A stretch of DNA of 48,261 nt from assembly GCA_955652705.1 (NCBI GenBank), contig CATPBK010000014.1:1-48261 (forward strand). The letters are read 5' to 3'. This document shows positions 8,040 through 30,784 of this stretch, one piece after another. Both the position numbers and the translations under genes were made by a program. The stretch is from Candidatus Dormiibacterota bacterium (GTDB taxonomy: Bacteria; Chloroflexota; Dormibacteria; Dormibacterales; Dormibacteraceae). The notes under the pieces are model-generated. The model saw nothing but the letters and a program-made list of their open reading frames with translations, ran no database searches and was not told the DNA's origin. Position 1 is the stretch's first letter; every line of letters starts with the position of its first letter.

Positions 8040-10043
<2,004 letters not shown>

Positions 10044-10074
10044 TCAAGCAAGACGTAATCTTCGACAGCTCCTC

Positions 10075-10080
10075 ATTCTA
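10075..10080 (-). promoter_or_regulatory. Candidate gyrB -10 box
   Basis: TAGAAT on the minus strand, which would give a leader of about 40 bases before the gyrB ATG. No convincing -35 was seen. The same hexamer precedes several other genes in the window. Confidence 0.45.
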
Positions 10081-10107
10081 CCAGATCCGGGACTTCCGGG
10101 GGGAATT

Positions 10108-10131
10108 TTGGCCCCCCTTAAGGGGGGCCAA
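10108..10131. terminator. 24-bp perfect palindrome after gcvPB
   Basis: A perfect inverted repeat with arms TTGGCCCCCC and centre TTAA lies 12 bases after the gcvPB stop and ahead of the gyrB promoter. RNA from either strand would form a very stable hairpin. The plus strand has TTTT before it, so the minus-strand transcript is followed by AAAA rather than a U-run. It is therefore an atypical terminator, or an insulating hairpin, between the glycine-cleavage and gyrB units. Confidence 0.5.
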
Positions 10132-10143
10132 GCCCGACAGGGT

Positions 10144-11601
10144 TCAGTCTTGCGCTGGAGGACGCCAGCGCAGCACGGGGTGGCGCGCGGCGGCGACCTC
10201 GTCGAGTCGGCCGACCGGCAAGCTGGTCGGCTCGGCCTGCAGCCGCTCCGGGTCAGTTTGCGCAAGCTGGACGATTTCCAGAACCGCCTCTGTAAAGGCG
10301 TCCAGCGTGGCCTTCGACTCGGTCTCGGTGGGCTCCACCATGACCGCTTCCGGGACGATCAGCGGGAAGTAGATGGTGGGCGCGTAGAAGCCGCGTTCGA
10401 GCAGCCCCTTGGCCAGGTCCGTGGCGTGGATGCCCTGCGCCGTCAGGTTGCGGGCGGAGGCCACGAACTCATGCTTGCAGGGTCCGTCGTGGGGAAATTC
10501 CAGCGCGCCCTCGAGCCGCGTGCGCAGGTAGTTGGCAGAGAGGACCGCGTCCTCCGAGGCCTGGCTCAGGCCGTCCGCGCCCATCGCCAGGATGTAGGTG
10601 AGCGCACGCACCAGCATCCCGAAGTTGCCGTAGAAGCTGCGGACTCTGCCGATCGAGCGCGGACGCTCGAAGTCGAGCTTGAAGTGGCCGTTCTCACGCT
10701 CCAGAGTGGGCCGGGGGAGAAACTGCTCCAGGTCCTTCATGACACCCACGGGACCGGCGCCAGGGCCGCCTCCGCCGTGCGGCGTGGTGAAGGTCTTGTG
10801 GAGGTTCAAGTGGACGACATCGAACCCCATGTCGCCGGGCCGGCAGATACCCATCAGCGCGTTCAGGTTGGCCCCGTCGTAATAAAGCTTGGCGCCGACT
10901 GAGTGCACCAGGTCGGCGACTTCCAGGATCTCTTTCTCGAAGAGGCCGAGCGTGTTCGGGTTGGTCAGCATGAGGGCCGCCGTCCGCGGCGAGAGTTTCG
11001 ACTCCAGGTCAGGCAGGCTGACCCGACCGCCGGCGTCCGACCTGACCTCCACGACCTTGAAACCGCAGAGAGCCGCGCTGGCGGGATTGGTTCCGTGTGC
11101 GCTGTCCGGCACGATGACCTCGCTGCGATCCTCGCCCCGGTCTTCGTGGAAGGCCTGGATCATGCGCAGGCCAGTCCACTCGCCGTGCGCACCGGCGGCC
11201 GGCTGCAGGCACATGCGGTCGACGCCGACGATCTCGCAGAGCGCCCGCTCCAGGTCCCACATCAGCTCAAGGGCGCCTTGCACAGTCTCCTCGGGCTGGT
11301 AGGGATGGAGGTAAGCGAAGCCGGGCAGGCTCGCCGCCACTTCGTTGGTGACGGGGTTGTATTTCATCGTGCAGCTGCCGAGTGGATAGAAATTCTTGGA
11401 GATCGAGTAGTTCATCGCTGCCAGCCGTGTGAAATGGCGCATCACCTCCGGCTCGCTCAGACGCGGGAGGTGCGGCCGGTTCCGGCGCAGGCGCGCTCGC
11501 GGGATGACCTGCGCCGGATCGACGCCCGGCAGGCCCGCCGCCGGCAGGCGGGGGCCCGGCAGCGACTCCCGGCTCTTCTCGAAGGAAAGCGGCTCGGTCA
11601 T
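10144..11601 (-). CDS. gcvPB: Glycine dehydrogenase (decarboxylating) subunit 2
   Basis: 485 residues. This is the PLP-binding half of the two-subunit P protein, which decarboxylates glycine and passes the aminomethyl group to lipoyl-GcvH. The PLP lysine is in DVVHLNLHKTFTTPHGGGG. MNYSISKNFYPLGSCTMKYN and PAAGAHGEWTGL are typical of this subunit. Its start overlaps the end of gcvPA by four bases. It is the last gene of the glycine cleavage operon and is followed by a strong palindrome. Confidence 0.95.
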   Translation of the reverse strand: MTEPLSFEKSRESLPGPRLPAAGLPGVDPAQVIPRARLRRNRPHLPRLSEPEVMRHFTRLAAMNYSISKNFYPLGSCTMKYNPVTNEVAASLPGFAYLHPYQPEETVQGALELMWDLERALCEIVGVDRMCLQPAAGAHGEWTGLRMIQAFHEDRGEDRSEVIVPDSAHGTNPASAALCGFKVVEVRSDAGGRVSLPDLESKLSPRTAALMLTNPNTLGLFEKEILEVADLVHSVGAKLYYDGANLNALMGICRPGDMGFDVVHLNLHKTFTTPHGGGGPGAGPVGVMKDLEQFLPRPTLERENGHFKLDFERPRSIGRVRSFYGNFGMLVRALTYILAMGADGLSQASEDAVLSANYLRTRLEGALEFPHDGPCKHEFVASARNLTAQGIHATDLAKGLLERGFYAPTIYFPLIVPEAVMVEPTETESKATLDAFTEAVLEIVQLAQTDPERLQAEPTSLPVGRLDEVAAARHPVLRWRPPAQD

Positions 11602-12929
11602 CCGTTGCAGGCCTCCACCAACGTCTCGATCGCGGCTGCGTCGTTGAGCTCCGTACAGCAGAAAACGAGGACGCCCTCCAGCTCGGGGAACCAGCGCCCG
11701 ACCGGGAGTCCGCCGAGGATGCCGACCTCCTGGAGTCGGGCCAGGAGGCCCTCGCCCCCCTCGACCCGGACCGGAAATTCATTCACGAAGGCGGCCTCCG
11801 GGAAGGCCGGCCGGAATCCCCGGAGCCCCGCCAGGCGGCGCTCCAGGTGGTGACTCCGCGTCAGGCTCGTCTGGGCGACATCGCGCAGACCATCCGGACC
11901 CATGTAGCTGAGGTAAACCGTCGCCGCCAGCGCGCAGAGAGCGTGGTTGGTGCAGATGTTGGAGGTCGCCTTGTCGCGGCGGATGTGCTGCTCGCGAGCC
12001 TGCAGCGTCAAGACGAAGCCTCGACGGCCCCGCGCATCCTGGCTTTCACCGACCAGCCGGCCGGGCAAGCGGCGCACGAGCTCGCTGCGGCAAGCGATGA
12101 AGCCCAGGTGGGGCCCGCCGTAACTGGGCGTCAGCCCCAGCTGCTGACCCTCCCCGACCGCTATGTCAGCTCCGTACTCGCCTGGTGGCTGGAGGAGGGC
12201 CAGATTCACCGGGTCCACGCAGGCGACGGCCAGGGCCCCGGCCTGGTGCGCGGCCTCGGTGAGGGCCTGGGCATCCTCGACCAGTCCGAGGAAGTTCGGC
12301 TGCTGGAAGATCACCGCCGCCACCGTCTGGTCGAGCGGCTCCCCGAGCTCGTCGGGGTCGACTACGCCGGCCCGCGGCAGCTTTTGTAAAACGTGGAACT
12401 TCCTGCCCCGCGCATAGGTGGTGAGGACTTCCAGATACTCGGGATGCAGGTACCCCGCCACCAATACCCGATCCCGCCCGGTCTGGACGACCGCCATGGC
12501 GGCCGCCTCCGCCACCGCCGTAGCGCCGTCATAAAGGGAGGCGTTGGACACGTCCATAGCCGTCAGCTCAGCGATCATGGTCTGGAACTCGAAGGTCGCC
12601 TGCAGCCAGCCTTGGCTGGCCTCCGGCTGGTAGGGCGTGTAGGCCGTGTAGAACTCCGACTTGGAGGTCACCGCGGGCACCGCGGCGGGAATGAACCGGC
12701 GGTAGACGCCGCCGCCTCGGAACGTCAGCCGGTCCTCGAACGCCGAGTTGCGCCCCGCCAGCTGCCGGACCCTGGCCATGGTCTCGGCCTCGCTCAGGCC
12801 GTCGGCGAGGTTCAAGCGGCGCAGGCGAAGCCGGGCGGGTATGTCGGCCAGCAGGGGCTCGAGAGTTTCGATGCCCATCTCCGCCAGCATCGCGGCGCGA
12901 TCCTCCGGTGAATGAACGAGGTAGGGCAC
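11598..12929 (-). CDS. gcvPA: Glycine dehydrogenase (decarboxylating) subunit 1
   Basis: 443 residues. This is the N-terminal-half subunit of the split P protein and forms the heterotetramer with GcvPB. Typical segments are FRGGGVYRRFIPAAV, FYTAYTPYQPEASQGWLQ, SLYDGATAVAEA and TSNICTNHALCAL. The GTG start at 12929 overlaps the gcvH TAG by one base (TAGTG). A parS-like site lies inside the gene at 12385-12400. It encodes FHVLQ with a TTA leucine codon, very rare in this GC-rich gene, which suggests selection on the DNA rather than the protein. Confidence 0.95.
   Translation of the reverse strand: MPYLVHSPEDRAAMLAEMGIETLEPLLADIPARLRLRRLNLADGLSEAETMARVRQLAGRNSAFEDRLTFRGGGVYRRFIPAAVPAVTSKSEFYTAYTPYQPEASQGWLQATFEFQTMIAELTAMDVSNASLYDGATAVAEAAAMAVVQTGRDRVLVAGYLHPEYLEVLTTYARGRKFHVLQKLPRAGVVDPDELGEPLDQTVAAVIFQQPNFLGLVEDAQALTEAAHQAGALAVACVDPVNLALLQPPGEYGADIAVGEGQQLGLTPSYGGPHLGFIACRSELVRRLPGRLVGESQDARGRRGFVLTLQAREQHIRRDKATSNICTNHALCALAATVYLSYMGPDGLRDVAQTSLTRSHHLERRLAGLRGFRPAFPEAAFVNEFPVRVEGGEGLLARLQEVGILGGLPVGRWFPELEGVLVFCCTELNDAAAIETLVEACNG
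12385..12400 (-). other. parS-like site 2 (inside gcvPA)
   Basis: On the minus strand AGTTCCACGTTTTACA, one end base different from the other asymmetric sites. The first base is fixed by the AAG lysine codon of gcvPA, which can explain the mismatch. Confidence 0.7.
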
Positions 12930-13306
12930 TACTCCGCCCTCCCTCCGGTGAGCTTCTTGTAAGCGGCCTCATCGAGGAGCCCGTCGCCGACGCCATTGCT
13001 CAGCTCGACCTTGACCAGCCAGCCTTCGCCGTAGGGGTCCTTGTTCACGAGCTCTGGCTGCTGGGTGAGGCGGTCGTTCACCTCCACGACCTTGCCGGCC
13101 ACCGGTGAATAGAGGTCGGATGCCGCTTTGACCGACTCGATCACGCCGAAGGCGTCGCCGGCCTGGACCTGAAGCCCTGCCCGGGGCAGCTCCAGGAAGA
13201 CGACATCCCCCAGCTGGGACTGAGCGAAGTCGGTGACCCCAACGGTGGCCACCTTGCCCTCGACGCTGACCCACTCGTGGCTCTCGGTGTAGCGGCGTTC
13301 GGCCAA
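12929..13306 (-). CDS. gcvH: Glycine cleavage system H protein
   Basis: 125 residues, normal. H protein is the lipoyl carrier that shuttles the aminomethyl group between P and T proteins. The lipoylation lysine is K60 in [15 protein letters not shown]. The opening [10 protein letters not shown] and the C-terminal [10 protein letters not shown] are typical. The TTG start at 13306 is supported by a strong AGGAGG seven to eight bases upstream. It lies between gcvT and gcvPA, and it touches the gcvPA start. Confidence 0.96.
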
Positions 13307-13335
13307 GTCAGATCCCTCCTGATCTAGATCGCAAT

Positions 13336-14445
13336 TCAGCTTTTCGCCGGCGCGGGCGAGCGAACTGAACCCCGATAGATGGGCAGCGCGACAGTTTCGG
13401 CCGGGCTCTTCCGGCCCCGGACCTCGAGCTCGATGGCCTGGCCCGGCTCGGCCAGGGCGGGCGCGACGGAGGCCATCCCGATGCCCTGGTTGAGCCAGAA
13501 GGAATAGGTTCCGCTGGTGACCTGGCCGGCGGGCCGCCCGGCCACCTGCACAGGCGTACCGTGGCGCGGGATGTTGCGGTCGAGCGACCGGATGCCCGTG
13601 AGCAGCCGGTCTGGCCCTTGGGCCTTCGCCGCCGCCAGCGCCGCCGATCCGATGAACTCCCCCTTGGCGAGCTTGACCGTCCAGCCGAGTCCGGCCTGGT
13701 AAGGGTTGGTCTGCTCATCCATGTCGTTGCCGTAGAGGCGCAGTCCCGCCTCCAGCCGGCAGGCGTCGCGAGCGCCGAGGCCGCAGGGCAGCACGCCTTG
13801 GGCGCGGCCGGCGCTAAGGATCGCCCGCCAGACCTCCGGCGCCCGGTCTGAGTCGACGAAGATCTCGAACCCGTCCTCGCCGGTGTAACCGGTGCGCGAG
13901 ATGAGCACCTGGGCGCCGGCTATCTCACCTTCCGCAAACCCGAAGTGGGGCACGGCCGCCAGGTCGATCCGCCGCGCGGGCAGCAGGGCCTCGGCCGCCG
14001 GTCCCTGGAGCGCCAGCAGGCTCAGCTCGATGGTCCGATCCTGAAAACGAAGGCCGCTGTGAGCGCGCATCCAGGCCAGGTCCTTCAGGCGGTTGGAGGC
14101 GTTCACGACGATCCGGAAGGCGTCCGCTCCGAGCCGATAGACGACCAGGTCATCGAGGATCCCAGCCTCCTCGTTGCACATCAGGGTGTACTGGGCGCGA
14201 CCAGGCGCGATCCTGGCCAGGTCGTTAGTAAAAAGGCGCTGGAGGTCGGCTTCAGCCCCGGCACCCGCGACGTCGACGCGGCCCATGTGGCTCAGGTCGA
14301 AAAGGCCCGCGACTCGCCGCACCGCGACATGCTCGTCGCGGATCGATCCGTACTGCTGGGGCAACTCCCAGCCGCCGAAATCGACCATCTTGCCGCCCAG
14401 CGCCAGGTGCTCCTGATAGAGGGCGGTGCGCTCAGTCCCGGCCAT
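13336..14445 (-). CDS. gcvT: Aminomethyltransferase (T protein)
   Basis: 369 residues from ATG 14445 ([10 protein letters not shown]). It transfers the methylene group from lipoyl-GcvH to tetrahydrofolate and releases ammonia. Visible family motifs are [63 protein letters not shown] and a C-terminal [11 protein letters not shown]. The frame is open to 14559, but the conserved N-terminus fixes the start. It overlaps the 3' end of the sigma-like gene by 14 bases, so that gene probably heads the operon gcvT-gcvH-gcvPA-gcvPB. No glycine riboswitch fold is apparent upstream. Confidence 0.95.
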
Positions 14446-15112
14446 CGTCGCCTTCCTCACCACGCAGCAGTTCGCTTGGATCCACCTCGATCCGCTCGGG
14501 ATCGATATAGAGCAGGAGCTCTTCGTCGTGGCGACGGCGGGCCTCGGCGACGATTTCACGGATCTGCTCTGTGCGCCGGGGCGTCCACTCCAGGCGGGCG
14601 CCGATCTCGGCCGCAGTCGGCGCGCGCCGGAGCTCGCTGCTGAGCAGCAGCTCGACGCGCTCGTAGTCGTTCGCCGCCTCCATCAGGAGACGCTCCTGCC
14701 GGACTGCCTCCGCCTCGCCCGCGAGCGCGTCCTCGATTGCAAGGGCAACCCGGCCGCGCGCGTAGGCGTTGAAGTCGCCCTGGCCGCCGGGCCGGTAGCT
14801 CGCGATCGCTTGCAGGAGGCCCACGGATCCCTCCTGGAAGAGGTCGCTGATGCCAAGTCCGCGGCCCTGCTTTTGAGTCGCAACTGCCAGGACGATCTGG
14901 AGATGAGTCTCGAGCAGGCGCTCCCGAGCTGGATTCGGCTCGCCGGCGGAGCTGACGCTCTCCAGCAGCCGCGCCTCTTCGCCAGGGCGCAGCGGTGGCA
15001 CCCTGCGCACCTCGGCCGCGATCGCTCGCAAGTCGGTGCTTTCGCTCAGGTCCGCCGGAGTCCCGCGCCGGCGCCGCGCCCCCGGCCCCATAGCCTCAGG
15101 CACGGGTGCCAT
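14432..15112 (-). CDS. Sigma-70-like protein lacking region 4
   Basis: 226 residues. Residues 28-52 (LRAIAAEVRRVPPLRPGEEARL) match sigma region 1.2. Residues 63-130 match region 2, with GRGLGISDLFQEGSVGLLQAI. Residues 150-190 (RRAPTAAEIGARLEWT) match region 3. The aromatic YATWWIRQAI segment that melts and reads the -10 element is YARGRVALAI here, and there is no region 4, so -35 recognition is absent. The protein ends in an acidic tail. It is either a divergent sigma factor or a core-binding regulator that has lost promoter recognition. It overlaps gcvT, and a TAGAAT box lies nine bases before its ATG. Confidence 0.7.
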   Translation of the reverse strand: MAPVPEAMGPGARRRRGTPADLSESTDLRAIAAEVRRVPPLRPGEEARLLESVSSAGEPNPARERLLETHLQIVLAVATQKQGRGLGISDLFQEGSVGLLQAIASYRPGGQGDFNAYARGRVALAIEDALAGEAEAVRQERLLMEAANDYERVELLLSSELRRAPTAAEIGARLEWTPRRTEQIREIVAEARRRHDEELLLYIDPERIEVDPSELLRGEEGDDGRD

Positions 15113-16384: not shown

Positions 16385-17218
16385 ATGGCATTGGAGCAAA
16401 TCACACCAACTGTGGCCCTATCAGATAACGGTGACCCCAAGATCTTGGGGTGCACCGGCGAGACCCGGATCATGGCGGTGGTGAACCAGAAGGGCGGCGT
16501 GGGCAAGACTACGACCGCGATCAACCTCGCCGCCTCGATGGCCGAGCTCGGCCGGCAGGTGGTCCTGATCGACCTCGACCCGCAGGCCAACTCCACCAGC
16601 GGCCTCGGCTTCGACGTGCGCCGGCAGCGCCTCAACGTCTATCACCTGCTGGCGGGTGAAGCCGTGATCGACGACGTGGCCGTGGCCACCTCGGTGCCCG
16701 GCCTGCACCTCGTGCCCTCGCACGTCTCCCTTGCGGGTGGGGAGATCGAACTGGCCCTGGTCGAGGAGCGCGAGCGCCGGCTGCAGCTGGCGCTCCGGGA
16801 GCTCAGCGGCGGCTTCGGCCACGTGCTCATCGACTGTCCGCCCTCGCTTGGGTTGCTGACCTTGAACGGACTCACCGCCGCCCATGAGGTGCTGATCCCG
16901 GTCCAGTGCGAGTACTACGCGCTGGAAGGCTTGGGCCACCTCCTTTACACGATGGAACTCGTGCGCGAGCGGCTCAACCCTGGGCTTCGCCTAGCCGGCA
17001 TCCTGATGACGCAGTTCGACTCCCGGACGACGCTCGGCTGGGACGTTGTGCAGGAGGTCCGCCGCGCCTACCCGGAGCAGATCTACGAGACCCTGATCCC
17101 GCGCAACGTCCGGCTCAGCGAGGCGCCCAGCCATGGCCAGCCGGTGACCGCATACGACCCCAATTGCCGGGGAGCCCAGGCTTACCGGCAGCTGGCGAAG
17201 GAGGTTCTCTCGCGATGA
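16385..17218 (+). CDS. parA: Chromosome-partitioning ATPase ParA/Soj
   Basis: 277 residues. ParA-type deviant Walker ATPase that moves ParB-parS complexes and, in many species, regulates DnaA. The deviant Walker A is KGGVGKTT (36-43), followed by DLDPQANSTSGLG and IDCPPSLGLLTLN. It carries about 28 residues before the usual start of Soj (RIMAVVNQKGG), and these are not conserved in the family. ATG 16385 is the only strong start for this extended form. The stop overlaps the parB start (ATGA), so the pair is translationally coupled. Confidence 0.96.
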   Translation: MALEQITPTVALSDNGDPKILGCTGETRIMAVVNQKGGVGKTTTAINLAASMAELGRQVVLIDLDPQANSTSGLGFDVRRQRLNVYHLLAGEAVIDDVAVATSVPGLHLVPSHVSLAGGEIELALVEERERRLQLALRELSGGFGHVLIDCPPSLGLLTLNGLTAAHEVLIPVQCEYYALEGLGHLLYTMELVRERLNPGLRLAGILMTQFDSRTTLGWDVVQEVRRAYPEQIYETLIPRNVRLSEAPSHGQPVTAYDPNCRGAQAYRQLAKEVLSR

Positions 17219-18066
17219 TGGAAGCCAAGAGAAGAGGGCTCGGCCGGGGGCTCGAGGCCCTGATCCCGCTGCCCAGCGACGGTCGCGAGAGCGGCGTTCC
17301 GCAACTGATCGCGGTCGACCAGATCAGACCGTCGTCGCAGCAGCTCCGGCGCTCCTTCGAAGCCGAGCCGCTCCGGGAGCTGGCTGACTCGATTCGACGC
17401 CACGGCGTCCTCCAGCCGGTCATAGTCCGGGCGCTACCCGACGGCTATGAGCTGCTCGCCGGTGAGCGTCGCTGGCGGGCTGCCAGGCTGGCCGGCCAGA
17501 CTCGGATCCCGGCGCTCGTCCGGAATGAGCCAGACGACCTGGACCGGCTTGTGATCGGCCTCATCGAAAACCTCCAGCGAGCTGACCTCAACCCGCTCGA
17601 GGAGGCGCACGGGGTACGGGCCTTGATCGACCAGTACGGGCTCACCCAGGAGGAGGTCGCCCTCCGCCTCGGCAAGAATCGGGTCTCGGTGGCGCAGGCT
17701 CTCCGACTCCTGCAGACCTGCCCCGCCGTGCAGTCGGCCTTGGCCACCGGCGCTCTCAACGCCGGCCACGCCCGAGCGCTGGCCGGACTGCCCGACGCGG
17801 CCGCCCAGGAACGAGGCCTCAAAGTCGTGCTGGGACGCCGCCTCTCGGTCAGGCAAGCGGAGGCTTGGGTGAAGACCTACCAGCCGGCTCTCCCCCGACG
17901 CCGGCCGAGCGACGCTCAGGGCGCGCTGGAGCAGCTCACTGTCGAGGTGCAGGACGCGCTCGGGGTCCCAGTGGCGATCACTGGCAGCCTGCGGCGCGGC
18001 CGCGTCTGCCTGAGCTACTCGAGCCGGGACGAGCTGCAACGTCTTTACGAGAAGCTGACCCACTGA
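17215..18066 (+). CDS. parB: Chromosome-partitioning protein ParB/Spo0J
   Basis: 283 residues from ATG 17215; the longer open frame upstream is only a shadow of parA. ParB is a CTP-dependent DNA clamp that loads at parS. The N-terminal ParA-stimulating segment RGLGRGLEALIPL (7-19) is conserved. The CTP-binding motifs are GERRWRAAR (83-91) and ENLQRADLNPLEEA (118-131). The helix-turn-helix at 143-166 reads LTQEEVALRLGKNRVSVAQA. In typical ParB the recognition helix reads KSRxxIANxLRLL; here KNRVSVAQALRLL replaces Ser by Asn and the IAN by VAQ. A parS-like site follows ten bases after the stop. Confidence 0.96.
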   Translation: MMEAKRRGLGRGLEALIPLPSDGRESGVPQLIAVDQIRPSSQQLRRSFEAEPLRELADSIRRHGVLQPVIVRALPDGYELLAGERRWRAARLAGQTRIPALVRNEPDDLDRLVIGLIENLQRADLNPLEEAHGVRALIDQYGLTQEEVALRLGKNRVSVAQALRLLQTCPAVQSALATGALNAGHARALAGLPDAAAQERGLKVVLGRRLSVRQAEAWVKTYQPALPRRRPSDAQGALEQLTVEVQDALGVPVAITGSLRRGRVCLSYSSRDELQRLYEKLTH

Positions 18067-20502: not shown

Positions 20503-21135
20503 TCAGGGCTCGGAGCGACGCGGCTCGACGACGACTCGACGGCCAGGTTCCTCCCCGACGCTGACCGTGGTCACCTCCGGGTCGTCCTCCAGCGCCAGGT
20601 GGATGGCCCGCCGCTCGAACGGTTGCATCGCGTCCAGGGTGATGGGGTCGCCGGTGACTTTGACCTGGCGAGCGGCGCGGTAAGCGATCTCCCGCACCGT
20701 GTGCTCACGCCTCTGCCGGTAGCGCTCGACGTCGACGATGACACGCCGATTCTCGACCAGCCGCCGGCTCAGCACCATGTTCACAACCGTCTGCAGCGCG
20801 CGCAGGTTTTCGCCTCGCCAACCGATCAGGGGACCCAGGTCGCGACCGCTCACGTCCAGGACGATCGGATCGCCACCCTGCCGCACACTGACCTGGCTCT
20901 TGATGCCCATCAGGTCGAGCAGGTTGGCGACCGCAGTCCGGCTGGCTTCGGCCATCTCATCAGCCGCCAGCGTCGCTGGCGCTTCGGCGCCCATCACCGA
21001 AACCTGCACGACAGTTTCCTCCGGCGACTCCTTTACAACCCTCACGTCCACGTTGCGGCGGCTTTCGCCGAGCTCGATCAAGGCGGCGTCAATGGCTTCA
21101 TCGAGAGTGCGCCCTCGACCCTCAGTAGACTTCAA
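20503..21135 (-). CDS. khpB: Jag/KhpB RNA-binding protein
   Basis: 210 residues from TTG 21135, which overlaps the yidC stop (TTGA); a longer frame upstream lies inside yidC. The Jag N-terminal domain is STEGRGRTLDEAIDAAL. The KH domain carries the GxxG loop LIGWRGENL. The R3H domain follows with FERRAIHLAL; the R-x-x-x-H pair is present. KhpB binds RNA and affects cell division and envelope genes in Gram-positive bacteria. Its place after yidC is the classic origin-proximal order. Confidence 0.92.
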   Translation of the reverse strand: MKSTEGRGRTLDEAIDAALIELGESRRNVDVRVVKESPEETVVQVSVMGAEAPATLAADEMAEASRTAVANLLDLMGIKSQVSVRQGGDPIVLDVSGRDLGPLIGWRGENLRALQTVVNMVLSRRLVENRRVIVDVERYRQRREHTVREIAYRAARQVKVTGDPITLDAMQPFERRAIHLALEDDPEVTTVSVGEEPGRRVVVEPRRSEP

Positions 21136-21902
21136 CTTCCCGGTGGTCTCCAGCCCCCGTTGACCAAGTACTGCTGGATTATAGCCACGCAGTTCGAAAT
21201 GAACCAATAGAGGCCCAGTCCGGCCGGTGTGATGACCGCGAAGTAGGCGATCATCAACGGCATCATCACCTGCATGCTCTTGGTCATCTGCTGCGTCTGC
21301 AGCTCCTGCTCGGTCGCCAGCGGATTGGCCGGCTGTTGCATCATTCTGGCTTGAATCCAGGTCGACGCCGCCGCCAATAGCGGAATCACAAGGTAGACGA
21401 CTGTGGGTATCGGCACTCCCGGAATCAGGAGGTGATGATTGGGCAGGTCGTTGAGGCTCGGGATGAACAGGAAGTGCGTGTCTGCCGCTCCCTTGAAGGT
21501 GTAGAAGACCCAGTACAACGCGGTCAGGATCGGGATCTGAATGACGGCGGGAAAGCAGCCTGCAAGGCCGCCCAGCGGGTTGACACCGTGCTCGCGATAG
21601 AGCTCCATCGTGGCGGCGTTCAGCTTTTGCGGATCGCCCTTGAATTTCTTCTTCAATTTGGCCACTTCCGGTGCCAGTTTGCGCTGTTCCTGCATGCTCT
21701 TACGGCTGAGCGACAGCTGCCACTGATAGAGCGGCGCCAGGATCAACTTGATGACAATCGTGAGCACGATGATGGAGACGCCGTAGGCACCGATCGCCTC
21801 CAGCAAAGGCACGGTTACGAACGTGTTGTAAAGCAGGCTCAAACCGGTCTTTATCGTCACGCCGAAGATGGCCCACCAGACGTCATGAATGGGAGCCAGC
21901 AA
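21132..21902 (-). CDS. yidC: Membrane protein insertase YidC/OxaA
   Basis: 256 residues from TTG 21902. It inserts membrane proteins, alone or with SecYEG. Five membrane helices are visible, including YGVSIIVLTIVIKLILAPLY with the conserved hydrophilic-groove arginine region just downstream. The family signatures NPLGGLAGCFPAVIQIPIL and the final FAVITPAGLGLYWFISN are present. The TTG has no ribosome-binding site. An in-frame ATA at 21926 is preceded nine bases earlier by AGGAG and would add eight residues (IDLSQLFK), so the true start may be ATA. No lipobox is seen. Confidence 0.93.
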   Translation of the reverse strand: MLAPIHDVWWAIFGVTIKTGLSLLYNTFVTVPLLEAIGAYGVSIIVLTIVIKLILAPLYQWQLSLSRKSMQEQRKLAPEVAKLKKKFKGDPQKLNAATMELYREHGVNPLGGLAGCFPAVIQIPILTALYWVFYTFKGAADTHFLFIPSLNDLPNHHLLIPGVPIPTVVYLVIPLLAAASTWIQARMMQQPANPLATEQELQTQQMTKSMQVMMPLMIAYFAVITPAGLGLYWFISNCVAIIQQYLVNGGWRPPGS

Positions 21903-21986: not shown

Positions 21987-22196
21987 TCACGGGACTGGAT
22001 CGTAACCGCCCTTCGCAAAGGGGTGACAGCGAAGGATGCGCAGCATGCCCATCCAGGACCCGCGCGCCCAGCCGTACCGTTCGACCGCCTCGTAAGTGTA
22101 GTGGGAGCAGGAAGGGTAGTAGCGGCACTGGCCACCAAGGACGTGCGCGAGGCTCACCTGGTAGCCCCGAATCAGCGCCAGGACGGCGCGCGTCAT
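21987..22196 (-). CDS. yidD: Membrane protein insertion efficiency factor YidD
   Basis: 69 residues, typical. It has the family core [18 protein letters not shown] and ends in [15 protein letters not shown]. YidD is a small inner-membrane-associated factor that assists insertion. Its ATG overlaps the end of rnpA by four bases. Confidence 0.95.
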
Positions 22197-22552
22197 GCGG
22201 ACGCGGCGTGCAGCCGCTGCAGGAAGCGGCCCGCCTCCGCTTCCAGCTCAGAAAATGGCATCTCGAGCGCGGCCGGTCGAGCTATCACGACCATGTCGAA
22301 GGTTATTCCCGACTCACTCAGTCTCGAATCAGTGTTCTCGAGTCCCGACCGCAGGGCCTCCCGGAGTCGACGACGGGCCCGGTTGCGCGCGACCGCGCCC
22401 TTGATCTGGCGGCTGACGCCGACCCCGACCCGGTTCCGGGCCGCCCTTCCCGCCGCCGCGAAGCCGACGATTGCGTGGCCGGCGTAGAGCCGCCGGGAGG
22501 AGACCAGTCTCTGGAAGTCTCGGCGGCCTGTGAGGCGGAGGCCCTTCTTCAA
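22193..22552 (-). CDS. rnpA: Ribonuclease P protein component
   Basis: 119 residues. It is the protein cofactor of RNase P, which matures tRNA 5' ends. The signature is [20 protein letters not shown] followed by [11 protein letters not shown] start at 22552, 20 bases after the rpmH stop; the rpmH-rnpA pairing is nearly universal. The C-terminus runs to [14 protein letters not shown]. Confidence 0.94.
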
Positions 22553-22824: not shown

Positions 22825-22853
22825 TTGCGAGGGTCTTGCCGCTTTGCTAGACT
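22825..22853 (+). promoter_or_regulatory. Promoter toward the ATPase-dnaA unit
   Basis: TTGCGA (22825-22830), 17 bases, then TAGACT (22848-22853). It would transcribe the GHKL-winged-helix gene and dnaA, with a leader of about 220 bases carrying DnaA boxes, which allows autoregulation by DnaA. Confidence 0.5.
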
Positions 22854-22953
22854 TCGGCCCCGGAAGCGGGATCCGGGGTATCGCAGCCAGGGCCTAGCAC
22901 CCGACGTCGAAACTTACGTTCTAGATCATTCTATCCACGGGCTGTGACCAATT

Positions 22954-22962
22954 TGTGGACAA
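22954..22962 (-). promoter_or_regulatory. DnaA box
   Basis: TTGTCCACA on the minus strand, a perfect match to the high-affinity box form TT(A/G)TCCACA. A weaker CTATCCACG lies at 22931-22939 on the plus strand. Confidence 0.7.
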
Positions 22963-23079
22963 CTTCGCTTTCGCGTTTTGGAACCGGCTTCTGATGGAGA
23001 AACGACGAGCGTTCCTGGTGAGCAACTCGTCAACCAGTCAGTAGCCTTTCCGCACTGGAAACACAAGGAGAGCCAGGGC

Positions 23080-23868
23080 TTGCAGGACGGGTCGGAAACC
23101 TGCCTGTCGGTTCGGTTGGCCATATACCGCGATGGCGAACCACAGCCGCAGGTCGAGGAAGTGCAGGGGACCGGTCCGGACGAACTTATCCACAGACTTT
23201 GCACCGCAGTAGGCGGGGTTATCACCGACCTCGGGGGTCCCCTTCCACAGGTTGCGGTCGTGGCGCTGATTCAGAATCTTCTGCACGCCAAATTCACTTG
23301 CGTCACCATTTCCGTTCTGGAGTCGGGTCGCAGCCTGAGAGTGGCGGATCGAGGACCGGGTATCGCTGATAAGGATCGTGCGCGCGAGCCCGGGTTCTCC
23401 ACAGCGGACGACGCCATGCGCCGCGTCATTCCGGGGGTCGGTGCCGGCCTCTTTGTGGCAGCTGGACTGGCCGCAAGCGCAGGCGGTCGGCTCGACGTCA
23501 GCGACAACCTCGGCGGCGGCACGGTCGCCACTCTCTCGGTCCCCGATCCGGCTCGGCTCGTGGCGCCCGCGCCGGAGCAGCTGACCAGCTCGCATTCGTC
23601 GTCCAGCACCGGAGCCGCGGCGGCTTTTCGACCCCGACCCCCCAGCTCCCAGCTGACCGACGGCGGCAAGCGGATCCTGCTCCTCCTGGCCGAGCTCGGA
23701 GGAGCCGCCCTGGGCACCATCTGTGACGAGCTCCGCATCCCGCCCGACGAGGTCGAATCGGAGCTCGACGCGCTGCGTAGCCGAGGTCTCCTCGACCCGG
23801 CCCGCAGCCACCAGATGATCCTGACGGCGGCGGGGCTGCGCTACCTCGATGGGATCTTCGTCGAGTGA
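23080..23868 (+). CDS. GHKL ATPase with winged-helix-like tail, overlapping dnaA
   Basis: 262 residues from TTG 23080, which has AAGGAG nine bases upstream; the frame is open to 22978 but without a site. It is not a family I recognise. Residues ~55-155 form a Bergerat-fold ATPase: N box ALIQNLLHA (N66, H69), ADRGPGIAD (D90, G92, G94), G2 loop GVGAGL (119-124) and a final GGGTVATLSVP. There is no phospho-acceptor helix or membrane segment. Residues ~160-190 are a Ser/Pro linker. Residues ~191-262 look like a winged helix (GTICDELRIPPDEVESELDA). The TGA overlaps the dnaA GTG by four bases, so it is coupled to dnaA. Confidence 0.75.
   Translation: MQDGSETCLSVRLAIYRDGEPQPQVEEVQGTGPDELIHRLCTAVGGVITDLGGPLPQVAVVALIQNLLHAKFTCVTISVLESGRSLRVADRGPGIADKDRAREPGFSTADDAMRRVIPGVGAGLFVAAGLAASAGGRLDVSDNLGGGTVATLSVPDPARLVAPAPEQLTSSHSSSSTGAAAAFRPRPPSSQLTDGGKRILLLLAELGGAALGTICDELRIPPDEVESELDALRSRGLLDPARSHQMILTAAGLRYLDGIFVE
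23186..23194 (+). promoter_or_regulatory. DnaA box inside the GHKL gene
   Basis: TTATCCACA, a perfect consensus DnaA box, lies within the coding sequence of the ATPase gene. A near match TTCTCCACA is at 23395-23403. Confidence 0.65.
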
Positions 23869-25235
23869 GCCAGCTCAGCCAGGAGCAGATCTGGTCCGCG
23901 GTCCAGGAGGAGCTCCGCTACCAGCTCGCCAAGCCCAGCTACGAGACCTGGGTGAAGAACACCTCCCTGCAGTCCTACGAGGGGACGACCTTCCGAATTG
24001 GCGTTCCCAGCAAGCTGGCCAAGGACTGGCTCGAAGACAGGTTCGCAGGCTTGATCCAGGAGACCCTGGTCGCCGTCACCGGCACCGAGGCGGAGGTGGA
24101 GTTTGTGGTCGCCGCCTCCAACGCCCGGCGTCTGGCTGAAGAGGAAGAGGGCGACGACCGGAGCTTCGCCGCCGAGGAGCTGGCGAGCGAGGTGCCGGCG
24201 ATCCCCCAGAGCGAGCTCAACGAGAAATTTAAGTTCAGCTCCTTCGTCGTCGGCAACAACTCCCGCTTCGCTCACGCCGCCGCCAACGCGGTGGCCGACG
24301 CGCCCGGCCAGGCCTACAACCCGCTTTTCCTGTATGGCGGGGTGGGCCTTGGCAAGACGCATCTCATGCACGCGATCGGCCACGAGGTCCGTCGCCGTTT
24401 TCCCAAAAAGCGCGTCAGCTACCTCACCTCCGAGCAGTTCATGAACGAGGTCATCGCTTCGATCCAGACCGCTCAGATGAGCGACTTCCGCCACAAGTAC
24501 CGGACCGTCGACGTGCTCCTCATCGACGACGTTCAGTTTCTGGCCGGCAAGGACCGCACCAAGGAGGAGTTCTTCCACACCTTCAACGCCCTCCACGAGA
24601 TCAATAAGCAGATCGTCATCTCATCGGACCGGCCGCCCAAGGAAATTCCCACCCTCGAGGATCGCCTGCGGTCGCGTTTCGAGTGGGGCCTCATTGCCGA
24701 CATCCAGCCGCCCGATTTCGAGACCCGGCTGGCCATCCTCAAATCAAAGCTCGGCTCCGGCGGCGGTTTCGTTTCCGAGGACGTGCTGACCTTCATCGCG
24801 CACAAGGTCCAGAAGAACATCCGCGAGCTGGAGGGGGCCCTGACCAGGATCATCGCCTTCGCGTCCATCCACCAGAAGGAGGTCGACGCGGAGGCTGCCG
24901 CGGTCCTCCTCTCGGACATCATCCCGGCTGCCTCCCGGCGCCCGATCAGCATCGATGCCATCCAGAGGGTAGTGTCCGACCACTACAACATCTCGCCCGA
25001 GGACATGAAAGGCAAGCGGCGCGACAAGCACATCGTGTTTCCGCGCCAAGTGGCGATGTACATCGTGCGCGAGGAGACGCCGTCCAGCCTGCCGGTCATC
25101 GGGCAGGCCTTCGGCGGGCGCGACCACACGACCGCTCTGCACTCGATCGAGAAGATCGCCAATGAGCTGAAGGAAGACGAGCAGCTCCGCTACGAGATCC
25201 AGTCCCTCCGCGAACGGCTCTACGCGGACCGCTGA
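23865..25235 (+). CDS. dnaA: Chromosomal replication initiator DnaA
   Basis: 456 residues from GTG 23865. DnaA binds DnaA boxes and unwinds oriC. Domain I spans 1-82 ([21 protein letters not shown]). Domain II is short and acidic (84-118). The AAA+ domain has Walker [10 protein letters not shown] (158-166), Walker [10 protein letters not shown] (D221, D222), and the arginine-finger region [10 protein letters not shown]. Domain IV holds the DNA-binding signature [16 protein letters not shown]. The start overlaps the stop of the upstream GHKL ATPase gene and has no strong ribosome-binding site of its own, which suggests dnaA translation depends on that gene. Confidence 0.97.
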
Positions 25236-27707: not shown

Positions 27708-27993
27708 GCTGGGCAAGATTCTGCCGCGGGTGCTTGCGAAGCAGAAGGGGAGCGCACTGCTCGAGATTCGAGCCCGGCTGCTGTTCACAGAGATCGTGGG
27801 CCCGGCTCTGGCCGGCCAGTGCGAGCAGCTCCTCCTCCGTGGGTCGGTGCTGACCGTAGTAACCCAAAACCCAGCCTTGGCCCATCAGCTCCGGCTCGAC
27901 ACTGGGCAGGTGTTGGAGAGGTTGAACGGCGCCGGGCTCGGTCGCCAGATCCGAGAGCTGCGTGTCCGGACCGGGCGGGGGGCAGTCACTTGA
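27700..27993 (+). CDS. dciA: DciA/DUF721-family protein
   Basis: 97 residues from GTG 27700, overlapping recF. DUF721/DciA proteins load or assist the replicative helicase in bacteria without DnaC or DnaI. The core is FTEIVGPALAGQCEQLLLRG, followed by SVLTVVTQNPALAHQL, ending in RELRVRTG. Position after recF is common for this family. Domain match is moderate because the protein is short. Confidence 0.8.
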   Translation: MDRLGKILPRVLAKQKGSALLEIRARLLFTEIVGPALAGQCEQLLLRGSVLTVVTQNPALAHQLRLDTGQVLERLNGAGLGRQIRELRVRTGRGAVT

Positions 27994-28000
27994 GCCGCCG

Positions 28001-30784
28001 ATGAGGCTATCGGCGGAGCAGAGGGCGGCGGCAGCCGGCCTTTTCGGTCCGGTTCGAGTGGTGGCCGGCGCCGGCACCGGCAAGACGGCGGTCGTGGCCG
28101 AGCGCTTCCTCCGCCAGGTGCGGGCCGGGACTGAGCCGACCTCGATCCTGGTCATGACGTTCACGGAGCGGGCCGCCGGCGAGATGCGCTCACGCATCGA
28201 GTCCAGGCTTGGAAGCTGGTCGGGCCAGCTCTGGGTGGGCACCTTCCACGCTATGGCCCAGGCGTTTCTACGCGAAGAGGGTTGGCGCATCGGCGTGCCC
28301 TTCAACTTTCGAGTCCTGATGGGCGCCGACCGCTGGATCTTCCTGCGCGAGCTGCTCTGGCGGACCGGCGACCCGGCGCTGGTGGGTGTCGAGCGGCCAG
28401 ATGACCTCGTAGCGCCGCTGCTCAGGTTGATGGAGCGGTTCAAGCAAGAGCTGGTCCCGTTGGGCCGGGTCGAGGAATGGGCGAAAGGGGCGTCCGATCG
28501 TGAGCTGGGGGAGCAGCTGGCGGCGGCGGTGAGGCTCTTTCGAACTTATCGAAAGCAGACTCGCGCGGAGAAGCTGCTTGACTTCGATGACCTCCTGGTG
28601 CAGCTCGTGGAGCTGCTCAACCACCGTCCCGAGGTCCGCGAGCGCTTTGTAAAACGTTTTACATCGATCCTGGTCGACGAATACCAGGACTCCAACTTCG
28701 CGCAGGAGCGAATGGTCGAGCTGCTCTCGGGCAGCGGCAACGTCTGCGTCGTCGGCGACGACGATCAGAGCATTTACAGGTTCAGGGGTGCGTCGCTGGC
28801 CAGCCTGGAACGCTTCATGCGCTCCTTTCCCGGCGCCACCACCCGCACCCTCGGGCGCAACCGGCGCAGCACGGCCAACGTCGTCGCCGCGGCCTCGGCG
28901 CTGATCGCCAATAACCCGCGTCGGCTGCAGAAGTCGCTGAGCGCCGGCCGGCCCCCGGGCCCCCGGATCGCCGTCTGGCACTGCGCGGACAGCTTGGCTG
29001 AGGCCTTCGCCATCGCCGCCGAAGTTCAGCGGTTGGGCGCTCGCGGGATGCTCTTGCGGCGGATCGCCCTGCTGGTGCGTACCAACGCGCTGGCCCGACC
29101 TCTGGTGGCGGCCCTAAGGGCGGCGCGAATACCCCACCAGCTGTGGGGCGTGCGCGGCTTCTACCGGCGACCCGAAGTGCTCGACGCCATCGCCTACCTG
29201 CGCTTGCTCGATGACCCTGGAGATGAGGTCGCCCTGGCTCGGCTGGCGGCCAGGCCAGGTCTTGGCCTCGACGCCGAGGAGGTCCTGGAGCGCTTGCGCC
29301 AGGCCCGCGGGAACGGGAAGCAGCCGCTGGCAGCTGTGGAGGCCTCGACCGGCGGCGCATCCTGGGTCGCGGTCGTGCGGAGGCTCGTCGTGGCGAGCGC
29401 CCGGCTCGGGGTGGACGAGCTCTTCTTCGAGCTCATGAACCAGACGCGCTACCTGGACCTCGCGAGCTTCGAGTCGGAAGCCGACCGCCGCCAGGCGGCG
29501 GCCAACCTGGGCCGCTTTGCGGAGCTCCTGGCGGGCTACTGCGAGGGCGCGCGCGACCACTCCCTGCGGGCCTTCATGGCATACCTCGACCTGGTTCTCC
29601 TCTCGGAGACCGACGAAGAGGTCGCCGGCGCTGAGGAGGTTGAGGAGGCGGTCCAGGTCATGACGATCCACCAGGCGAAGGGCCTCGAGTTCGACGCCGT
29701 CTTCGTTCCTGCGCTGGTGGAGGGGCGGCTGCCCCACTCGCGCCGGCCCGACCGTTTCACTCTTCCCGCCGAGCTGGTCCCCGAGGCCCCTGGCCGCGAA
29801 GACCAGGTCGCCGAAGAACGGCGCCTCGCCTATGTGGCCATGACGCGCGCACGCGACCGGCTCTACCTGTCCTGGGCCGACCGCTACGACGGCGGCAAGA
29901 CCTGGCGGCGGTCACGCTTTCTGGAGGAGTTGGAGGCGGCCGGCGCGGAGCGGTTCCGACACCGGCGGGTTGAAGCCGTCCCACCGGCGCCAGTGCCCGA
30001 ATTGGCGGCCGGTGAATCCCCCGCCGCCGCAATTGCGCTCGCCGCCGCCATTCCGGGAGAGCCGCTTGCGCTCTCGTTCAGCGGCATCAGCACCTACCGC
30101 GAATGCCCCCGCCAGTATCGCTTCAGGTACGTCTACCGGCTGCCCCGCGCGGCCGACCCGGAGGCCGAGTTCGGCACCATCCTGCACCACGCCCTGCGTC
30201 GAGCCGGGGAGGTCAGACAAGCAGGCGGCGAGGTGGACGCGACGGCCTTGAGGAGAGTCCACGAGGCGGCCTGGGAGACGCTCCCCTACTCCGATGAGCG
30301 ACGCCGACCAGCACTTAAGTCGCTTGGGCTGAGCCAGCTGGAGCGCTACCGGGCCGCCGGTGGTTTCGCGGCGACCCCGGCGCTGCTCGAGCAGGCCTTT
30401 TCGGCTCGGGTGGACGGCTGGCAGCTGCACGGGATCATCGACCGGGTCGACCCGCCCGAAGTAAGCCGAGGCTCCTGGCGGCTGCTCGACTACAAGACTG
30501 GTTCGCCCGTACCCGCCAGCCGGCTGCGCCGCGATCTTCAACTCGCCCTCTACGCGCTGGGCGCTCGACGCGCACTCGGGCTGGACCCGTTAGAGCTGGA
30601 GATCGTGTACCTGAAAGACGCCACCCGGGTAGTCGTTCCTGCCACCCAGGGCTTGCTCGAGGAGGCGGAGGGCATCGCGTCGGAGGTGGCGGACGGGATC
30701 CGACAGGGTCGGTTCGAAGCTCGTCCAGAGCGGCGCCGCTGCGCCCTCTGCCCCTACCGGCTGGCCTGCTCGGATGCCTTGTAG
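28001..30784 (+). CDS. UvrD-type helicase fused to Fe-S PD-(D/E)XK nuclease
   Basis: 927 residues from ATG 28001. The N-terminal superfamily 1A helicase has Walker A AGAGTGKT (22-29), the DEYQD Walker B near 226, DDDQSIYRFRGAS and VMTIHQAKGLEFDAVF. The C-terminal ~230 residues are a RecB/AddB-like nuclease: FGTILHHAL, GIIDRVD and LLDYKTG. Four cysteines fit a 4Fe-4S cluster: one in YRECPRQYRF and three in CALCPYRLAC (C-x2-C-x5-C). This composition suits double-strand-break end processing, as in AddAB or AdnAB. A parS-like site lies inside at 28648. The 3' end overlaps the facing glycosyltransferase gene. Confidence 0.9.
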   Translation: MRLSAEQRAAAAGLFGPVRVVAGAGTGKTAVVAERFLRQVRAGTEPTSILVMTFTERAAGEMRSRIESRLGSWSGQLWVGTFHAMAQAFLREEGWRIGVPFNFRVLMGADRWIFLRELLWRTGDPALVGVERPDDLVAPLLRLMERFKQELVPLGRVEEWAKGASDRELGEQLAAAVRLFRTYRKQTRAEKLLDFDDLLVQLVELLNHRPEVRERFVKRFTSILVDEYQDSNFAQERMVELLSGSGNVCVVGDDDQSIYRFRGASLASLERFMRSFPGATTRTLGRNRRSTANVVAAASALIANNPRRLQKSLSAGRPPGPRIAVWHCADSLAEAFAIAAEVQRLGARGMLLRRIALLVRTNALARPLVAALRAARIPHQLWGVRGFYRRPEVLDAIAYLRLLDDPGDEVALARLAARPGLGLDAEEVLERLRQARGNGKQPLAAVEASTGGASWVAVVRRLVVASARLGVDELFFELMNQTRYLDLASFESEADRRQAAANLGRFAELLAGYCEGARDHSLRAFMAYLDLVLLSETDEEVAGAEEVEEAVQVMTIHQAKGLEFDAVFVPALVEGRLPHSRRPDRFTLPAELVPEAPGREDQVAEERRLAYVAMTRARDRLYLSWADRYDGGKTWRRSRFLEELEAAGAERFRHRRVEAVPPAPVPELAAGESPAAAIALAAAIPGEPLALSFSGISTYRECPRQYRFRYVYRLPRAADPEAEFGTILHHALRRAGEVRQAGGEVDATALRRVHEAAWETLPYSDERRRPALKSLGLSQLERYRAAGGFAATPALLEQAFSARVDGWQLHGIIDRVDPPEVSRGSWRLLDYKTGSPVPASRLRRDLQLALYALGARRALGLDPLELEIVYLKDATRVVVPATQGLLEEAEGIASEVADGIRQGRFEARPERRRCALCPYRLACSDAL
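28648..28663. other. parS-like site 5 (inside the helicase gene)
   Basis: TGTAAAACGTTTTACA, a perfect 16-bp palindrome. In the reading frame it encodes VKRFT just before the DEYQD motif, using the codons GTA, AAA, TTT and ACA, which are rare in this gene. Confidence 0.8.

Follow-up and report, generated by a model that had tools for sequence, protein, structure and literature searches.

It has long been asked how bacteria set the amount of DnaA, and few lineages are documented to exert control where dnaA translation begins. In Caulobacter, DnaA synthesis is controlled via the 155-nt untranslated 5′ leader of dnaA (PMC4489657) and also by the sequence of the nascent DnaA polypeptide (PMC8443254). 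The locus described here would resemble that system in placing the control of DnaA synthesis in front of the coding sequence or where it begins. Where Caulobacter has an untranslated leader and the nascent DnaA sequence, however, we find a separate ORF that overlaps the dnaA start and, in one clade, encodes a full protein.

GHKL domains, MarR-like winged helices (wHTH) and coupled leader ORFs are each already known. The ATPase part of the present protein is like the catalytic (HATPase_c/CA) domain of histidine kinases in its best sequence and fold matches and in its G1 and G2 boxes, but it comes without the HisKA/DHp region, the phospho-acceptor domain and the sensor part, has Ala instead of the first N-box Asn as well as a shorter loop, and carries an attached wHTH. 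The C-terminal 80 residues have the wHTH core fold in common with MarR-type regulators, albeit without the flanking dimerisation helices and below the Pfam MarR_2 cut-off. A GHKL-like fold and a wHTH in one chain, as here, are also found in AlbA_2/HATPase_c_4-wHTH proteins: PDB 3lmm (DIP2311), a protein of this type with a wHTH, is a weak fold match to the whole model. Unlike DIP2311-type proteins, the GHKL-wHTH protein gives no AlbA_2 or HATPase_c_4 Pfam match, and it differs in size. In the open-access literature, we found no report of a GHKL protein joined or coupled to dnaA, nor of a dnaA leader ORF that overlaps the dnaA start.

A GHKL-winged-helix gene in front of dnaA

The window (the whole 48,261-nt stretch of DNA that was analysed) belongs to a 2.8 Mb genome assembly of 166 contigs. 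Upstream of the GHKL ORF, on the opposite strand, lie a KhpB/Jag gene and ORFs of the yidC and rnpA type; a dnaN-type ORF and a RecF/SMC-type gene lie downstream of dnaA. The yidC-, rnpA- and dnaN-type ORFs were named by their position and their conservation in relatives. The features of the locus are:

21132-21902, opposite strand: yidC-type ORF
22193-22552, opposite strand: rnpA-type ORF
23067..23072, + strand: Shine-Dalgarno (SD) sequence AAGGAG of the leader/GHKL ORF, anti-SD energy -8.5 kcal/mol (background 5% quantile -7.8)
23080..23868, + strand: chimeric GHKL-wHTH gene, an open frame of 262 aa with a TTG start
23257..23547, + strand: HATPase_c (GHKL) domain, residues 60-156 (PF02518, E=5.8e-10)
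23638..23865, + strand: C-terminal MarR-like winged helix, residues ~187-262
23865..25235, + strand: dnaA (PF00308, E=4.6e-74), its GTG start lying on the TGA of the GHKL ORF, without an SD of its own
27962-30784, + strand: UvrD-type helicase fused to a PD-(D/E)XK nuclease, directly 3′ of the RecF-like gene

The overlap between the TGA of the gene and the GTG of dnaA, at 23865, is as the original prediction had it. That prediction also spoke of a complete Bergerat ATPase core, and here the picture is mixed. PF02518 scores 40 bits against a curated cut-off of 26.4, and the profile matches all three known orthologues (the window protein included) at E<=1. The window protein has the G1 box DRGPGI and the G2 box GVGAGL, with DRGPGI and GVGxGL being invariant in 3/3 orthologues. 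The N box, by contrast, is only partly kept, which makes 'complete' too strong a word: when aligned by eye with the kinases of relatives on the G1 motif, the invariant N66 corresponds to the second N-box Asn, the first position is Ala62 in 3/3 orthologues, and the following loop is shorter than in those kinases. An alternative reading of NLLHA as NLLxNA, in which the N box would have no Mg-binding Asn, was rejected, as relatives' kinases place N66 at that very residue.

Is this a kinase? The closest relatives of the ATPase part, in sequence and in fold, are the catalytic regions of histidine kinases, and the AlphaFold model of the protein, although of moderate quality as a whole (pLDDT 67), matches such regions in the PDB. 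In line with the earlier view that kinase dimerisation and phospho-acceptor parts are lacking, no HisKA-type Pfam match (DHp dimerisation, phospho-acceptor His) was obtained at E<=10. The SpoIIAB equivalog TIGR01925 (RsbW/SpoIIAB anti-sigma kinase) reached 18 bits, far short of its cut-off of 135, and an HMM built from relatives' kinases produced no alignment to the protein. The protein likely binds ATP; action as a kinase is unlikely and ATP hydrolysis uncertain, and with Ala62 and a short loop it could make weak use of ATP or none.

The helix-turn-helix-like tail foreseen from the sequence is borne out by the fold prediction. Predicted separately, the C-terminal 80 aa form a winged helix (mean pLDDT 79.8), whose Foldseek matches in the PDB are MarR-type and similar wHTH structures (E about 4e-4; query TM-score about 0.75-0.87 against MarR structures). 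In the fold model, one helix follows the wing before the chain ends. Sequence profiles are less clear, with Pfam MarR_2, HTH_20 and IclR being weak or below cut-off (for MarR_2 the best E is 0.0072, and the window protein scores 13 bits against a cut-off of 27), and the domain searched alone yielded only weak wHTH matches (best E about 1e-3). The protein probably binds DNA through this domain.

The frame is open and conserved, neither frameshifted nor confined to the window: full-length orthologues occupy the same place, with the same dnaA overlap, in a genome of the same genus (G001, 89% identity) and in one of a sister genus (G006, 62%). Over codons 58 to the end, dN/dS is 0.17, 0.30 and 0.37, as against 1.4-3.1 in two shifted frames. 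The ATPase part gives 0.13 and 0.12 and the wHTH part 0.06 and 0.38 (window versus G001 and versus G006, respectively), and both are under purifying selection. Because of the two same-place orthologues and of dN/dS values well under 1 relative to the shifted frames, the ORF is a real coding gene and more than a product of chance.

Absence from close relatives had been named beforehand as a point that would count against the gene. Of 42 family genomes, 39 dnaA loci were examined and 36 of these lack it, but it is present in the sister genome and the sister genus, so the gene is clade-specific rather than spurious. No other full-length match occurred among 110 genomes of the class (107 others searched) or in a 400-genome sample of the phylum (397 others), and in a search of genome contigs the sister genome was the sole match. 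There is no sign of a mobile source, since viral contigs and plasmids yielded no relatives. The carriers are one small group of soil Chloroflexi, and in a DnaA-DnaN-YidC tree the window genome, G001 and G006 form one clade with support 1.00, which makes a single gain the simplest history, with losses also possible. ORFs of similar length 5′ of dnaA in other families (252 aa at L097, 289 aa at L094) were dismissed as related genes: they look antisense or of low complexity, and tblastn gave no match to the GHKL protein at those loci.

Origin sequence, leader ORFs and the dnaA start

The gene had been placed directly between oriC and dnaA. This does not hold, as its 5′ ~140 nt are themselves oriC sequence, with a DnaA box inside the frame. 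The relevant features are:

22825..22853, + strand: predicted promoter TTGCGA-17-TAGACT with a TGC extended -10; the leader has no other of this kind
22928..22968, + strand: block conserved in the GHKL clade by three-way DNA alignment, CATTCTATCCACGG..CTGTG..TTTGTGGA.AA.TTC, with two facing DnaA-box-like half sites
23080..23222, + strand: 5′ part of the GHKL ORF on the oriC module, codons 1 to about 45-48, homologous to the leader ORF of relatives
23186..23194, + strand: perfect DnaA box TTATCCACA, read in the coding frame as Leu-Ile-His; box 2 of the family origin

The oriC module of the family consists of DnaA box 1, an SD-like stretch and DnaA box 2, the latter being present in nearly all family loci and mostly 132-139 nt after box 1. 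Within the ORF of the carriers, box 2 makes up codons 36-39, and alignments suggest that similarity to the module may reach codon ~57 (23250). Compared with a gene-less relative (G008), the G006 sequence is 82% identical over 78 bp (E 2e-15), spanning the start codon, and the window is 84% identical over 44 bp. Between the window and G006, codons 1-30 carry 4, 3 and 4 substitutions at codon positions 1, 2 and 3, whereas codons 61-100 carry 12, 8 and 32. This pattern, along with the dN/dS values, indicates that constraint acts on the DNA sequence in the first part of the gene and on the protein in the rest. Further upstream, the block at 22928-22968 is conserved to 85% over 48 bp between the window genome and G006 and contains a minus-strand DnaA box at 22954; this dyad is a candidate site for the regulator or for DnaA. 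In the leader, no dedicated operator was identified beyond DnaA-box-like sites, nor any direct sign of the GHKL-wHTH protein acting on its own promoter.

What do relatives without the gene have in its place? It had been assumed that dnaA normally comes first in its unit, but dnaA in this family usually follows a short leader ORF that looks translated. In many gene-less relatives this ORF lies at the homologous place, downstream of the same single promoter; it starts just past DnaA box 1 and spans DnaA box 2, and its stop often falls on the dnaA start codon. An SD-preceded frame with its stop on the dnaA start is found at 24 of the 39 family loci (the window counted). In genus g9 the arrangement is uniform, with AAGGAGG, an ATG start and 65-70 open codons up to a TGA that overlaps the dnaA TTG or GTG in 16/16 genomes (L070, L079, L081, L082, L118-L128 and L134), which are related and hence do not amount to 16 independent observations. 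The frame is open despite changes in leader length (195, 201, 204 or 210 nt). Stops are absent from the other two sense frames in just 1/16 and 5/16, and when the alignment columns of nine equally long leaders were shuffled, 9 of 20000 trials left the frame open. The sequence of the peptide drifts, with a dN/dS of about 0.9. As the peptide is not conserved, translation as such, that is, the delivery of ribosomes to dnaA, is the likely function of the leader, and the g9 frame is a possible instance of a family-wide translational coupling element.

Similar leaders exist elsewhere in the family (76 aa in g4, 62 in g8, 97-101 in g12, 90-91 in g5 and 101 in g14), with much shorter ones of 21-23 aa in g11 and in one g7 genome. 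Their start codon, at one place and at a similar distance from the promoter, interchanges between ATG, GTG and TTG; this holds for either half of the family, with SD energies no weaker than -6.9. The AAGGAG of the GHKL ORF is also kept in alignments with gene-less relatives. The leader is not essential across the family, as g2, g3, g10 and the second g7 genome have a weak one or none. No consistent leader ORF was seen in the outgroup families of the class. At one locus (L074, genome G014), the frame of the 101-aa leader reads VEKEQEIGLGKVIHSIT...FPQLV, resembling residues 25-60 of the GHKL protein, with no ATPase part; this frame may be an intermediate, or the resemblance an echo at the DNA level.

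The nearly invariant pattern of the promoter, TTGCnn-17-TAnnnT with an extended -10, is present as a single copy at 38 of the 39 family loci, the contig of the remaining one ending early. From the promoter to the leader start the spacing stays at 208-264 nt, while from the promoter to dnaA it rises from 403-543 nt in gene-less relatives to 1034-1042 nt in carriers; the leader is longer by ~600 nt in the GHKL clade. Outgroup families of the class have a comparable promoter nearer to dnaA.

At the dnaA start, anti-SD energies are -4.0 kcal/mol in the window and -4.1 in G001 and G006, versus -5.0 to -13.4 in the 36 relatives and a background median of -3.0. The dnaA SD is thus weakest in the GHKL clade, although two g2 genomes come close. 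Inside the GHKL ORF, no later start with an SD was found at the loci L062 and L067. A weak dnaA SD next to a good GHKL SD is what would be expected if ribosomes from the GHKL frame translate dnaA, and the case for coupling is the stronger because dnaA lost its own SD in exactly this clade. We infer that the leader is translated; GHKL translation appears to feed directly into dnaA.

A proposed coupled regulator and its alternatives

We propose that the GHKL gene is an enlarged dnaA leader ORF. The dnaA transcript would start at the one conserved promoter and usually carry a short leader ORF whose role is to deliver ribosomes to dnaA. Between box 2 and dnaA, this ORF would in one clade have taken in a GHKL-winged-helix segment, and with dnaA having lost its own ribosome-binding site, DnaA would be made mainly by ribosomes finishing the GHKL protein. 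This protein would bind ATP without a kinase role and DNA by its MarR-like wHTH, the ATPase domain acting as a nucleotide- or partner-controlled switch. Its simplest target would be its own promoter or oriC, so that it would feed back on the expression of dnaA or on the use of the origin. While the anatomy and ancestry of the gene are well supported, the full reading (a chimeric, ATP-binding, kinase-unlike regulator that is translationally coupled to dnaA and probably regulates its own promoter or origin) has, in our estimate, about an even chance of being correct. It is plausible that the protein tunes the amount of DnaA or the activity of the origin. More tentatively, the locus might record the birth of a gene inside an origin: a leader ORF selected only for being translated would have gained an ATP- and DNA-binding cassette, and origin DNA, the DnaA box included, would have become the N-terminal part of a regulator coupled to, and feeding back on, DnaA synthesis. 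If true, this would be a case in which the birth of a gene over an origin can be traced. Likewise, if a family-wide leader within oriC passes ribosomes on to dnaA and has become a nucleotide-binding regulator in one clade, ribosome traffic would be connected with ATP state and the initiation of replication in a clear and testable way.

Could the leader 'ORF' instead be an oriC DNA element only, its SD, start letters and open frame being accidental, and the GHKL gene start further in? The first 30 codons of the GHKL ORF evolving like DNA, the drift of the leader peptide and the lack of a leader in several genera all fit this idea. Yet the g9 frame stays open in every genome through length changes while other frames have stops, start codons interchange with the strong SD being kept, and the GHKL ORF offers no later SD-preceded start, so that we consider it unlikely. 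MarR-like regulators have very varied targets, and the GHKL-wHTH protein might be one that is unrelated to replication and controls other promoters, its site before dnaA merely conferring growth-linked expression. Restriction of the gene to one clade and a leader without a dedicated operator would agree with this; its junction with an essential gene whose SD is lost, and selection keeping it at exactly this place in two genera, make such a role rather improbable.

The protein might also act by contact with DnaA: made in a fixed ratio to it, sensing ATP/ADP through the GHKL domain and restraining or helping DnaA, while its wHTH would bring it to oriC. The stop-start overlap implies linked synthesis, and the products of overlapping genes are often partners; to our knowledge, however, the known DnaA modulators Hda, SirA, YabA and Soj have folds unrelated to that of the GHKL-wHTH protein, and we regard direct contact as quite improbable.

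The wider surroundings of the origin have features of their own. An Rfam search of the window returned no match. ParA- and ParB-like genes (16385-18063, + strand) are found close to the origin, on the side of rpmH, rnpA and yidC. The UvrD-PD-(D/E)XK fusion is an unusual neighbour for a dnaA-dnaN-recF group, and gyrB lies apart from dnaA-recF, in the region 8040-14559 on the - strand, where it adjoins a cluster of glycine cleavage genes (GcvT and GcvP, the latter in two parts).
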